64,000 bases of DNA from an uncultured Archangium sp. (GTDB lineage Bacteria > Myxococcota > Myxococcia > Myxococcales > Myxococcaceae). This document shows, piece by piece, positions 2,192 to 6,739 of this stretch. The stretch is from the NCBI GenBank assembly GCA_903905455.1, contig CAIVGN010000115.1, positions 1 through 64,000 on the forward strand. The letters are read 5' to 3'. The notes beneath the pieces were generated by a model. The model ran no database searches and was not told where the DNA came from. It saw only the letters and a program-made list of their open reading frames with translations. Every line of letters begins with the position of its first letter. Within the stretch, counting starts at the first letter, position 1. A program made the translations under genes and the position numbers.

Positions 2192-4288
2192 GTGTCACTC
2201 GAAACCTACGGCCGCTACCAACTGCTGAAGAAGCTCGCCACCGGGGGCATGGCGCAGATCTATCTCGCGCGGCAGTTGGGACCCGAGGGCTTCGAGAAGC
2301 TGCTGGTCGTGAAGCGGATCCTGCCGCACCTCGCGGAGAACGAAGACTTCATCACCATGTTCCTCGACGAGGCGCGCATCGCGGCGCGGCTCAACCACCC
2401 GAACATCGTGCAGATCTTCGATCTCGGCGCGCAAGACGACAGCTACTTCATCGCCATGGAGTTCATCCACGGCGAGGACGTGCGCCGGGTTTGGAAGCAC
2501 TCCGAGAAGATGGGGCGGCCGATCCCGCTCGCGTTGATTTGCCGCATCATCATCGAGGCGTCGGCGGGCCTGGACTACGCGCACAAGAAGCCTGATGCGT
2601 CAGGGCGGCCGCTCAACATCGTGCATCGCGACATTTCTCCTCAGAACATCCTCGTGTCGTTCGAGGGAGGGGTGAAGGTGGTCGACTTCGGCATCGCCAA
2701 GGCGGCCGATCAGGCCACGGTCACGAAGTCGGGGGTGCTCAAGGGCAAGTACTCGTACATGTCGCCCGAGCAGGCGGCCGGGCAGTCGATCGACTGCCGC
2801 ACCGACATCTTCGCGCTCGGCGTGGTGCTCTACGAGCTGCTCACGGGTACGCGGTTGTTCAAGCGGGGCACCGACATCCAGACCCTGAACGCGGTGACGG
2901 AGTGCAAGCTCCAGCCCCCCTCGGCGGTCAATGATCGGGTGCCCGCGGACCTCGACGTGATCGTGATGAGGGCGCTCACCAAGGACCGGGCGGACCGGTT
3001 CCCCGAGGCCCGGCAGCTCGGGGCGGCGCTCGAGAACTGGCTGCTGACCAACGGGCTGCCCTCGGGCTCCGCGGCGCTCGCGGAGTTCATGCAGGACATC
3101 TATGCCGAGCGGCTCGAGCGGGAACGCGAAGAGGGCCGGCTACTCGTCGAGACGGCGGAGCACTCGCGCGGTGAAGAGCCGCTGGCTGACCGGGAGAAGG
3201 CGACCCCTTCGCTCGACGGGCTGCGGCGGCAGACGCGGTCGATGCGCTCCTCCCAGTCGCAGCCGCTCTCGCAGCTCAAGCCCAGGCGGGAGCTGGAGGC
3301 CACCGCGGCCGAGCGTCCGTCGAGCTCGCGGAGCCAGAGCAGTTCGAGGCGGGTGGTCGAGCGCTCGGTGGCGCAGGCTCCGTTGCCGGCGCGGCCGGTG
3401 CCCGTGGTCAGCCACCCCACCGAAGCGAGCATGCCCACCCAGGGAACGGGTGCTCGCCGGTCTGCCCTCCTTCCGCTCGTGGCCCTGGGCCTGCTCGTGC
3501 TGGTCGGCCTGGCCGCATGGTCGTTCTTCGCAGAGCGGCCGGCCGGTTTTTCACTCGAGACCGACCCCCCGGGGGCGAGCGTGTCGAGGGCGGGGGCGCA
3601 GCTGTGCACGACCCCCTGCGACGTGACCGACCTCGTGGCCGGGGAGCTCACCCTCACCATCGAGAAGAGCGGCTTTCGCCCGGAACGGCGCTCGCTGCAG
3701 CTCAAGGCCGGGGTGCACGAGGCCATGGCCCAGGTGCGCTTGGCGTCCCTCGTCGTGGAGCCGCCCCAGGTGAAGACCGTGGCCGCCCTATCGACGGTGC
3801 GCATCGAGTCTGACCCAACGGGTGCTGAGGTCCAGCTCAACGGCGTGCCTGCCGGCACTGCGCCCGCGTCAAAGGCGTTCGCTCCTGGTGCCGTGGTGGA
3901 CGTGCACCTCGAGCTGGCCGGCTACGCCCCGCTCGTGGAGTCGTTCACGGTGGGCTCCGAGCCCGAAGATCTGCATCAGTACGCGCTCAAGGCGCTCTCC
4001 AAGAGCCCGGCGAAACAGCCCGTGGTCAAGAACACCACACTCGTGCCCGAGGTGAAGGCGCCGCTGGCCGCTGGCCGGGGCACGGTGCGCTTCGTGGTGA
4101 AGCCCTGGGCCATGGTGGAGTGCCCCCAGCTGCGCTTCAAGGACACGACCCCGTTTGCCGACCAGGCGTTCCCGGCGGGCGACTACGCCTGCACCTTCAC
4201 CAACCCGGACCACCCCGCGCAGACCAAGAGCTTCCGCGTCGAGCCCAACGCGACGACGAAGGTGGCTGTGAGCTTTCTGCAAGACTGA
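2192..4288 (+). CDS. Membrane serine/threonine protein kinase with PEGA repeats
   Basis: 698 aa. Residues 7-285 form a Hanks-type kinase with a glycine loop (ATGGMAQIYLA), the ATP lysine in VVKRIL, the catalytic HRDISPQNIL and the metal-binding DFG (VVDFGIAKA), so it looks active. A Ser/Arg-rich linker (about 310-420) leads to one transmembrane helix (LLPLVALGLLVLVGLAAW). Beyond it lie two PEGA-type repeats (FSLETDPPGASVSRAG and VRIESDPTGAEVQLNG) and a small C-terminal domain. The kinase would face the cytoplasm and the PEGA part the periplasm or wall. Such kinases are abundant in myxobacteria. The GTG start has no clear ribosome binding site, and no partner gene is adjacent. Confidence 0.92.
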   Translation: MSLETYGRYQLLKKLATGGMAQIYLARQLGPEGFEKLLVVKRILPHLAENEDFITMFLDEARIAARLNHPNIVQIFDLGAQDDSYFIAMEFIHGEDVRRVWKHSEKMGRPIPLALICRIIIEASAGLDYAHKKPDASGRPLNIVHRDISPQNILVSFEGGVKVVDFGIAKAADQATVTKSGVLKGKYSYMSPEQAAGQSIDCRTDIFALGVVLYELLTGTRLFKRGTDIQTLNAVTECKLQPPSAVNDRVPADLDVIVMRALTKDRADRFPEARQLGAALENWLLTNGLPSGSAALAEFMQDIYAERLEREREEGRLLVETAEHSRGEEPLADREKATPSLDGLRRQTRSMRSSQSQPLSQLKPRRELEATAAERPSSSRSQSSSRRVVERSVAQAPLPARPVPVVSHPTEASMPTQGTGARRSALLPLVALGLLVLVGLAAWSFFAERPAGFSLETDPPGASVSRAGAQLCTTPCDVTDLVAGELTLTIEKSGFRPERRSLQLKAGVHEAMAQVRLASLVVEPPQVKTVAALSTVRIESDPTGAEVQLNGVPAGTAPASKAFAPGAVVDVHLELAGYAPLVESFTVGSEPEDLHQYALKALSKSPAKQPVVKNTTLVPEVKAPLAAGRGTVRFVVKPWAMVECPQLRFKDTTPFADQAFPAGDYACTFTNPDHPAQTKSFRVEPNATTKVAVSFLQD

Positions 4289-4307
4289 AAGTGCAGCTGA
4301 AGCTCGC

Positions 4308-4325
4308 TGTCCAATTTATTGGACA
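4308..4325. promoter_or_regulatory. Palindrome TGTCC-N8-GGACA
   Basis: A perfect inverted repeat: TGTCC at 4308-4312, eight bases, then GGACA at 4321-4325. The symmetry extends to CTGTCCAA/TTGGACAG (4307-4326). From memory it matches the TGTYC-N8-GRACA palindrome reported for MrpC, the CRP/FNR-family developmental regulator of Myxococcus xanthus. It sits about 107 bp upstream of the predicted start of transcription from the sigma-54-like promoter. Confidence 0.5.
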
Positions 4326-4339
4326 GCGGTGTCCGCAAA

Positions 4340-4357
4340 AGTCCACTCCAGTGGACA
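4340..4357. promoter_or_regulatory. Second palindrome AGTCC-N8-GGACA
   Basis: AGTCC (4340-4344), eight bases, GGACA (4353-4357), with inner symmetry GTCCACT/AGTGGAC (4341-4347, 4350-4356). It has the same spacing as the first site, with one mismatch to its left half. The two centres are 32 bp apart, about three helical turns, so two dimers could bind the same DNA face. Confidence 0.45.
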
Positions 4358-4397
4358 TCTGAGTGGCCCATCCCCAAGGAGAGCTGAAGTTGTGGCT

Positions 4398-4414
4398 GGG
4401 CACCCCAATTGCAT
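4398..4414 (+). promoter_or_regulatory. Sigma-54-like -24/-12 promoter
   Basis: GGGCAC (4398-4403), five bases, then TTGCAT (4409-4414). The consensus is TGGCAC-N5-TTGCW; only the first base differs. The invariant GG (4399-4400) and GC (4411-4412) keep the exact 12-bp spacing. Transcription would start near 4423-4424, running away from the tandem palindromes, which lie where enhancer sites usually do. Confidence 0.5.
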
Positions 4415-4423
4415 TTGGTTCCG

Positions 4424-4752
4424 CCGGGAACGACTTCGGTCCATTCCAGAGCAGAGGCGGTTGTCCGGGGGGATGGCTGTCGCTCTCGAAATGGGACGAA
4501 GGGGCAGGGCGGGAGACATCACCCCGAGCTCGACGGTCGCTCGTTCGCGGCCGGATCGAGCCGCATTGTGGGGTTGGGCGGCACCGGTGTGACGGGGTGC
4601 AGGGGAGTGTGGCGCAGTGAAGAGGTGGCCTGGTCCCTCGGGCTCGGCGGGTTGGTGGTTGGGTGACGGAGCTCTTCGCGGTGTCGGGGGTGGCGTCTCG
4701 GCAGCATGAAAATGGAACGGCCGTCGCTCGAAGAGAGCGACGGCCGTTTTGT
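4424..4752 (+). ncRNA. Candidate small RNA between sigma-54-like promoter and terminator
   Basis: The predicted transcript runs about 325 nt from the sigma-54-like promoter to the stem-loop at 4716-4748. No open frame within it has both a credible ribosome binding site and protein-like composition; an ATG at 4473 could encode about 39 Arg/Ala-rich residues but has no properly spaced site. A non-coding RNA is therefore the simpler reading. This is inferred only from the layout of signals; expression is unknown. Confidence 0.35.
4716..4752. terminator. Strong, probably bidirectional intrinsic terminator
   Basis: Perfect 14-bp arms at 4716-4729 and 4735-4748 (AACGGCCGTCGCTC and its complement) enclose a 5-nt loop and are followed by TTTT. 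The other side has AAAA at 4709-4712, giving a T-tract on the minus strand. It ends the dsbA-type gene (stop 27 nt away) and the candidate small RNA. Confidence 0.85.
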
Positions 4753-4774
4753 TCTGCGAGAGCTGAGGGGCGGC

Positions 4775-6739
4775 TTACTTCTTCTTCTTCAGCTCGTCGT
4801 CGATGATGGCCTTGAAGGCGTCAATCGGCTGCGCACCGACGACCTGGCGGCCATTGATGAAGAAGGTGGGGGTGCCGTTGGCGCCCACACGCATGCCTTC
4901 GTTCGAGTCGGCCGTGATGTAGGCGTCGAACTTGTTCGAATCGAGGGCGGCCTTGAACTTGCCGACGTCGAGGCCGAGTTCCTGAGCGTAGCGCTCGAGG
5001 TTCGGGCGCTCGAGCGCCTGCTGGTTGGCGAAGAGCTTGTCGTGCATTTCCCAGAACTTGCCCTGCTCGTGCGCGGCCATCGACGCCGCGGCGGCGCCCT
5101 TCGCGTTGTTGTGGAAGGGCAGCGGCTGGTGCTTGAAGACGACCTTGATCTTGCCCTCGTACTGCTTCTCGAGGTCGTGGAGGGTGGGCACCACGCGCGA
5201 GCAGAAGGGGCACTGGAAGTCGGAGAACGCAACGATGGTGACCGGGGCGTTCTTCGGGCCGAGAACGGGGGCGCCGTTGATGTTGAGATCGGTGACGACC
5301 TTGGCGGCTTCCGGAGCGCCGGGAGCGGACGGGGGCGGCGCCTTGCCGGCTTCCTTCTGGAACTCGGCGTAGAGGTCGGCGGGCTTGATGCCCTTGGCGA
5401 TCATCGCGTCTGCCTTCTTGATCTCCTCGTCGATCATGCCCTTGAACGCCTCGAAAGGCTGGGCACCGACGAACTCGCGACCGTTGATGAAGAAGGTCGG
5501 GGTCCCGTTGGCGCCGACGGCCATGCCGGCCGCCGAGTCTTCCTCGACGCGCTTGGTGAACTTGCCGGAGTCGAGGGCGGCCTTGAACTTGCCCACGTCG
5601 AGGCCGATTTCCTGCGCGTAGCGCTCGAGGGAGGCGCGGTCGAGGGCCTGCTGGTTGGCGAACATCTTGTCGTGCATGAGCCAGAACTTGCCCTGCTCAT
5701 TGGCGGCCATCCCGGCCTCGGCGGCGATCTTCGCGTTGTTGTGGAAGGGCAGGGGCTGGTTGCGGAAGACGACCTTCACGTTGTCGCCGTAGGTGTCTTC
5801 GATCTGCTTGAGCGTGGGGACGACGCGGGAGCAGAAGGGGCACTGGAAGTCGGACCAGGTCACGATGGTGACCTTCGCGCCGGTCTTGCCGCCGCGGGCG
5901 GGCGAGTCAGAGGGGAACTCGATCTTGCGGATGGCCGCAGGCGCGGGAGCGGAGGGGGCGTTGGGCTGCTGGGGCGCGGGGGCCGGGGCGGTGACGCCGT
6001 TGGCGATGACCTTCGCGTAGACCTGGTCGGCGGGGGTGCCGCTCTTGACCAGTTCGTTGGCCTTGGCGAGTTCCTCGTCGATGACCTTCTTGAAGTTGTC
6101 GATGGGCTGCGCGCCCGAGATCTTCTTGCCGTTGATGAAGAACGCCGGGGTCCCGGTAGCGCCGAGCTGCATGGCGAGCTGGGTCTCCTTGGCGATCTGC
6201 GCCTGAAACTTCGGCGACTGCATGTCGGTCTTCCACTTCTCGACGTTGAGGCCGAGGTCCTTCGCGTACTGCTCGAAGGTCGCGTCTTCCAACTGCTGCT
6301 GGTTGGCGAAGAGCTTGTTGTGCATCTCCCAGTACTTGCCCTGCTCACCAGCGGCGAGCGCGGCGAGGGCGGCCGGCTTGGCGCGCGGGTGGAAGTCGAG
6401 CGGGTGCTGCTTCATCACCACGCGGATCTTCCCTTCGTACTGCTTCTCGAGCTCGAGGATGGTGTTGTGACCGCGCGAGCAGAAGGGGCACTGGTAGTCG
6501 GAGAACTCGACCACGGTGATCAGGGCCGTGTTCGGGCCCTTGACGGCCGATTCCTCGAGGGGAACCTTGTAGACGCTGGAGTCGCCCGCGGGCGCACCAG
6601 CGGGGCGGGCGGCCGGCGCACCGGGGGACGGCGCGGCAACGGCGGCAGCGCCGCCGTCAGAGGGTCGCTGGAACATGCTGCCGACGGCGAAGCCGACGAC
6701 ACCGCCAACGATGAGGGCGATGATGACTGAAGGTTTCAT
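4775..6739 (-). CDS. Triple-domain DsbA-like thiol:disulfide oxidoreductase
   Basis: 654 aa. A single N-terminal hydrophobic helix (VIIALIVGGVVGFAVG, residues 5-20) anchors or exports it, followed by an Ala/Pro linker. Three DsbA-like thioredoxin-fold domains then follow, each with a CPFC active site (C84/C87, C300/C303, C510/C513), a cis-proline motif (GTPAFFING once, GTPTFFING twice) and an FxNQQ helix. Ala/Pro-rich linkers separate them. Domains 2 and 3 resemble each other most, suggesting stepwise duplication. All three dithiol sites look intact, so it should oxidise or isomerise disulfides in the periplasm. An ATG 24 codons further upstream is open, but ATG 6739 has an AAGGGAG site at good spacing and begins the membrane helix. 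Confidence 0.88.
   Translation of the reverse strand: MKPSVIIALIVGGVVGFAVGSMFQRPSDGGAAAVAAPSPGAPAARPAGAPAGDSSVYKVPLEESAVKGPNTALITVVEFSDYQCPFCSRGHNTILELEKQYEGKIRVVMKQHPLDFHPRAKPAALAALAAGEQGKYWEMHNKLFANQQQLEDATFEQYAKDLGLNVEKWKTDMQSPKFQAQIAKETQLAMQLGATGTPAFFINGKKISGAQPIDNFKKVIDEELAKANELVKSGTPADQVYAKVIANGVTAPAPAPQQPNAPSAPAPAAIRKIEFPSDSPARGGKTGAKVTIVTWSDFQCPFCSRVVPTLKQIEDTYGDNVKVVFRNQPLPFHNNAKIAAEAGMAANEQGKFWLMHDKMFANQQALDRASLERYAQEIGLDVGKFKAALDSGKFTKRVEEDSAAGMAVGANGTPTFFINGREFVGAQPFEAFKGMIDEEIKKADAMIAKGIKPADLYAEFQKEAGKAPPPSAPGAPEAAKVVTDLNINGAPVLGPKNAPVTIVAFSDFQCPFCSRVVPTLHDLEKQYEGKIKVVFKHQPLPFHNNAKGAAAASMAAHEQGKFWEMHDKLFANQQALERPNLERYAQELGLDVGKFKAALDSNKFDAYITADSNEGMRVGANGTPTFFINGRQVVGAQPIDAFKAIIDDELKKKK

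Follow-up and report, generated by a model that had tools for sequence, protein, structure and literature searches.

Few sRNAs are known in myxobacteria. The nearest known case to the locus described here is Pxr of Myxococcus, an sRNA with a sigma-54 promoter and an enhancer region that is encoded beside the gene for a sigma-54 activator (bEBP), pxrR/nla19 (PMC5568312, PMC5684412). Pxr, a controller of multicellular development, is ~108 nt long with three stem-loops, and its gene follows that of an NtrC-like response regulator and borders a NADH dehydrogenase gene (PMC5568312, PMC5684412). In Enterobacteriaceae, the sRNA GlmY also has a sigma-54 promoter, preceded by several QseF/GlrR sites with the consensus TGTCN10GACA (PMC8745638). 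A third point of comparison is the promoter of mrpC, which is sigma-54-dependent and has two upstream sites for the bEBP MrpB; MrpC competes at these MrpB sites (PMC10701913).

Here, we analyzed an intergenic region of a 64-kb stretch of DNA (the whole of which is called the window). We consider the region probably to be a gene for a structured sRNA that is sigma-54-dependent, bEBP-controlled, and restricted to one genus. This new probable sRNA is Pxr/GlmY-like in layout. It shares with Pxr a sigma-54 promoter and the link to a bEBP gene, a likeness judged by description, but its predicted length is ~325 nt rather than ~108 nt and its structure differs. Moreover, Pxr lies downstream of an NtrC-like regulator, whereas the locus described here is, in relatives of the window genome, divergent from a GAF-type activator, and its neighbors in the window are a kinase gene and dsbA, not nla19/pxrR and a NADH dehydrogenase gene. 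GlmY/QseF can be regarded as the enterobacterial analogue, and the perfect palindrome at 4308–4325 of the window fits TGTCN10GACA exactly; QseF, however, is a two-component response regulator, whereas the activator here has a GAF domain. The mrpC promoter resembles the window locus in combining a bEBP and two upstream sites with a sigma-54 promoter, but it serves a protein gene and is subject to competition by MrpC, while the window locus is without an MrpC motif. A second probable sigma-54/bEBP-controlled RNA, together with a named candidate activator, makes a directly testable regulator–RNA pair. The relatives, in which one promoter architecture has different outputs, bear on the origin of regulatory RNAs.

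A predicted sigma-54 promoter with paired upstream sites

The region is flanked by a gene for a PEGA-domain Ser/Thr protein kinase (2192–4288, + strand) and by a gene for a protein with three DsbA-like thioredoxin domains (dsbA; 4775–6736, − strand), both identified with Pfam. The first-pass annotation had described two palindromes 32 bp apart, a −24/−12 element with a start near 4424, a stem-loop terminator, and flanking genes that converge on the region, and direct reading of the sequence bore out all of these. The first predicted upstream activator site, TGTCCAATTTATTGGACA (4308–4325, no strand assigned), is a perfect TGTCC-N8-GGACA centered near −107. The second, AGTCCACTCCAGTGGACA (4340–4357, also unstranded), has one mismatch to the same pattern, begins 32 bp after the start of the first, and is centered near −75. 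The sigma-54 −24/−12 element, GGGCACCCCAATTGCA (4398–4413, + strand), has GG at 4399–4400 and GC at 4411–4412, and the position of this GG-N10-GC places the predicted +1 at ~4424. The predicted intrinsic terminator (4716–4748, unstranded) is a perfect 14-bp stem (4716–4729/4735–4748) with a short + strand T-run after it, and is common to the 3′ end of dsbA on the − strand. A similar stem-loop is present at the same spot in G002, a genome without the promoter and the RNA. We also noted a + strand T-tract past the dsbA-side stem-loop (window 4716–4755) in the RNA carriers G000, G003, G004, and G005; the tract is weak in G002.

The single elements are not rare: 2.05 palindromes with one mismatch are expected per 64-kb window, and the window holds 11 loose GG-N9-TTGCW matches to the −24/−12 pattern alone. 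None of 150 simulated windows contained two sites within 60 bp whose mismatches summed to one or fewer, and in the 8.6-Mb genome of the window (G000) the exact palindrome is present just four times. The question is settled by conservation in related genomes, because of which we regard the locus as real and not a product of chance. In G001, G003, G004, and G005, which belong to the same genus as G000, the promoter element is at the same place, and a matching layout is found in other genera; site 2 lies 58–59 bp ahead of the promoter element in these four genomes and in G022. Both the −24/−12 element and the palindromes are therefore kept in relatives, and the loss of conservation that the first-pass annotation had named as evidence against its reading was not seen. 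Overall, GG-N10-GC, paired upstream sites, helical phasing, and an adjacent bEBP gene in relatives are all present, as in a sigma-54/bEBP promoter, and the earlier proposal of a sigma-54 promoter with upstream sites that drives a probable small non-coding RNA gains support from the sequence comparisons.

The locus and its candidate activator gene in related genomes

In G003, G004, G005, and G001, the region lies between the same dsbA gene and a bEBP gene transcribed divergently from it, and the palindromic sites, GG-N10-GC, and terminator occur in the same order. The encoded bEBP has GAF, AAA+ (Sigma54_activat), and Fis-type HTH domains. In G003, ~6.2 kb separates the kinase gene from dsbA and contains, in order, the terminator, the conserved region, the divergent bEBP, a DUF4347 protein, a 139-aa protein, and a kinase-nSTAND1-FGE protein. 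G005 has the same beginning of this arrangement, spread over two contigs, G004 has it up to a contig end, and G001 has the order dsbA, intergenic region, bEBP. In G002, G022, G007, G026, and G023, the kinase gene and dsbA converge with a short gap between them.

In G000, the 6-kb stretch is missing from the window site, and the orthologous bEBP is on another contig (C216:10739–12184), where its neighbor is a gene for what we take to be a SulP-type transporter. This bEBP retains GAFTGA, GAF, Sigma54_activat, and HTH_8; it falls into one clade with the dsbA-adjacent bEBPs of G001, G003, and G005, and its recognition helix, LTRSHVYNL, is identical to theirs. Because activator and promoter are unlinked in G000, their pairing in this genome is by orthology only. 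The first-pass annotation needs the correction that the promoter is split off in G000 from its usual neighbor, the activator gene. A search of G000 for a DUF4347 homologue found none, and, since this genome is 97.8% complete and in 251 contigs, its absence is not proven.

The bEBP is patchy across the family. In G003, the stretch L070:2677–8319 comprises the bEBP, the DUF4347 protein, the 139-aa protein, and the kinase-nSTAND1-FGE protein, and the kinase part of the last matches PADLOC defense kinases. PADLOC also found that the AAA-HTH part of the bEBP resembles RtcR-type regulators; we rejected an RtcR-type identity, given a GAF domain instead of CARF, and PADLOC gave no named defense system. 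Among the bEBP relatives, L088, L090, and L098–L104 (from G017, G019, G103, G100, G093, G068, G084, G097, and G095) have GAFPGA where sigma-54 activators have GAFTGA; most of them still carry paired sites, and several a −24/−12 element. The bEBPs of G082b and G070 have GAFSGA.

Putative enhancer sites across the family

The divergent upstream regions of 25 family bEBP loci were scanned for sites together with the window region, that is, 26 sequences. Pairs of TGTCCA-N6-TGGACA-like (TGTC-N10-GACA-like) sites with a spacing of 31–33 bp were present in 18 of the 26, usually with a GG-N10-GC promoter downstream. The best site scored 12.2–13.4 (maximum possible 13.4) in 17 of the 26, compared with a maximum of 10.4 in the control set, which consisted of the upstream regions of 56 unrelated, distant bEBPs among the matches listed. 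Between the second site and the promoter, distances cluster at 48–49, 58–59, 69–71, and 82 bp, that is, in helical-turn steps; G084 (62 bp) and G085 (89 bp) are off this series. Phasing of site and promoter at 10.5 bp gave R = 0.76 over 14 loci, with each close group represented once, and none of 20,000 simulations reached this value; the figure is only a guide, since common descent still links the 14 loci.

G022 has altered sites, TTCC-N8-GGAA (ATTCCAC...GTGGAAT), together with an altered recognition helix (VARSHVYNL vs. LTRSHVYNL), and these paired changes fit a co-evolution of protein and site. G018, from another genus, has the same dsbA–bEBP order, yet is without a clear site pair.

A predicted structured RNA with covarying helices

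A predicted structured non-coding RNA of ~325 nt spans 4424–4750 (+ strand), its start taken from the −12 element and its end from the terminator. Hairpin HP1 (4456–4481, + strand) has an invariant GUCC-GGGG-GGAU apex and folds alike in G000, G003, G005, and G004; changes in its stem are consistent among the four, with one extra C-G pair in G004. A conserved island, CACCGGTGTGACGGGGTGCAGGGG (4582–4605, + strand), is fully conserved in G003 and mostly conserved in G005, and contains CGGGGTGCAGGGG, which is one of three identical runs of 17, 13, and 11 columns; such clustering was seen in 0 of 2000 column shuffles. Further downstream (4620–4676, + strand), helices P1 and P2, with the invariant loop GUCCCU, covary over four genomes. 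The P2 pairs are GACCCG/CGGGUC in G005, GAUCUG/CAGAUC in G001, and GCCUG/CGGGC in G000 and G003, and they always flank GUCCCU. The outer stems are CGGAGU/ACUCCG, UGGAGU/ACUCCA, and GAGAGU/ACUCUC, and in G000 AAGAG/CUCUU, one alignment column off. In P1/P2, 97.9% of cells pair, four pairs are changed on both sides, and 1 of 500 shuffles reaches the covariation score, with the qualification that the alignment has four sequences only, which also served to derive the helices. All slid versions of P1/P2 gave a far lower covariation score.

Among 96 family genomes, P1/P2 matches to the covariance model R1 with E ~2e-11 or lower were confined to G000, G001, G003, and G005; because the model was built from those four sequences, the informative part of the search is the absence elsewhere. 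Two weaker R1 matches, from G064 and G032, fall within coding sequence and were dismissed as chance. The version in G004 is 136 nt long and has only HP1 and the terminator, without P1/P2. Outside the terminator, transcript identity is 64% for G000–G003, 61% for G000–G005, and 71% for G003–G005, which is no higher than at the four-fold sites of dsbA in the same genome pairs (70%, 70%, and 76%); the transcript is therefore not uniformly conserved, with the islands and helices as the exceptions. An Rfam search returned no match at gathering score and, by E-value, only chance-level scores, and a search for tRNA and tmRNA found none. As judged from sequence, the region has the attributes of an sRNA gene, being non-coding and structured, with its own promoter and terminator.

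Proposed mode of action and alternative explanations

For bEBP binding, transcription, the transcript ends, the mode of action, and the target, we infer the following sequence of events. The GAF-AAA+-Fis HTH bEBP (encoded on C216 in G000, and adjacent and divergent in relatives) would bind the two sites at ~−107 and −75 and reach sigma-54 polymerase at 4398–4413 through DNA looping. A non-coding RNA of ~325 nt would then begin near 4424 and stop at the terminator at 4716–4748. This RNA might act in trans, and the part likeliest to pair is the C-rich GUCCCU loop of P2, for which G-rich ribosome-binding sites would be the partners. Taken by itself, pairing in trans is a tentative proposal, to which we would give clearly less than an even chance. 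The loop complement, in the form GAGGGACC-N4-10-ATG, was not clearly enriched over a reversed control pattern in six genomes. An SRPBCC-like gene with orthologues in G000 and G003 retains GAGGGACCCACACATG in both, and this may be merely a conserved ribosome-binding site.

We weighed four other explanations against a bEBP-controlled sRNA gene. The promoter might be an orphan that once drove a protein gene, as it does in sister genera, with the remainder being a decaying, functionless leader that ends at the dsbA terminator. Such an origin would suit the presence of the same promoter in front of protein genes in other genera, the near-neutral identity of the transcript overall, and the confinement of the RNA model to one genus. 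We nevertheless think it unlikely: P1/P2 covary, the identical islands are non-randomly clustered, and G000 retains the promoter, both sites, and the RNA although its activator gene is on another contig and the search for DUF4347 came up empty.

Antisense regulation of dsbA in cis, by a transcript that passes the terminator and runs into the convergent triple-DsbA gene at its 3′ end, seems a good deal less probable. Wherever the locus adjoins dsbA, the predicted transcript is aimed at the 3′ end of that gene, also in G018 from another genus, but a strong stem-loop lies in between in these genomes, and + strand T-tracts are present in G000, G003, G004, and G005.

The first-pass annotation had matched the palindrome to the site of MrpC and suggested a developmental sRNA. 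The TGTCC/GGACA half-sites do resemble CRP/FNR-family sites, and the gene mrpC is itself transcribed from a sigma-54 promoter preceded by activator sites (PMC10701913). The motif from MrpC ChIP-seq, however, is TGTYN8RAC (PMC4320627), which has no match in 4289–4430 on either strand; the geometry of the palindromes is TGTC-N10-GACA. In addition, the exact site occurs four times in G000, as against 1608 putative MrpC sites in M. xanthus (PMC4320627). Because neither palindrome fits TGTYN8RAC and the sites track a specific bEBP gene, the window palindromes are best read as enhancer sites of that bEBP and not as MrpC sites, and an MrpC-regulated developmental sRNA is highly improbable.

A small peptide or short protein encoded by the transcript, also raised in the first-pass annotation, has hardly any likelihood: short ORFs occur in single genomes (for example, a 91-aa GTG frame in G003), but no ORF is shared across G000, G003, G005, and G001 (nor is there one behind the promoter of G004), and indels in the transcript alignment are out of frame, not multiples of three.

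Output of the promoter in other genera

In several genera other than this one, a protein gene follows the same promoter at a distance of ~20–120 bp. By eye, the downstream proteins in G083, G020, G082, G085, G100, G002, and G070 have signal-peptide or lipoprotein-like starts, while those in G084, G019, and G095 are unassigned proteins of 485–493 aa. These differing outputs suggest that the gene behind the cassette promoter turns over rapidly. A modular activator cassette of the family might have swapped its output, the same bEBP and paired sites serving protein genes (often secreted) in several genera and a structured regulatory RNA in this one. Since activator and RNA gene are separated in G000 and both are kept, the RNA would be a trans-controlled regulator under selection. 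We consider this reading of the cassette possible, at somewhat short of even chances.

Across L198–L208, the protein after the promoter differs from genus to genus. Upstream of the bEBP in L087 (G022) and L089 (G018), there is no obvious protein gene close behind the promoter. The hairpins of the putative short transcripts at these two loci are HP1-like, at a divergence too great for a homology call; they have G-rich loops (e.g., GGUGUUCCGGGGGGAAACACC in G018), and the transcripts would end at T-runs.
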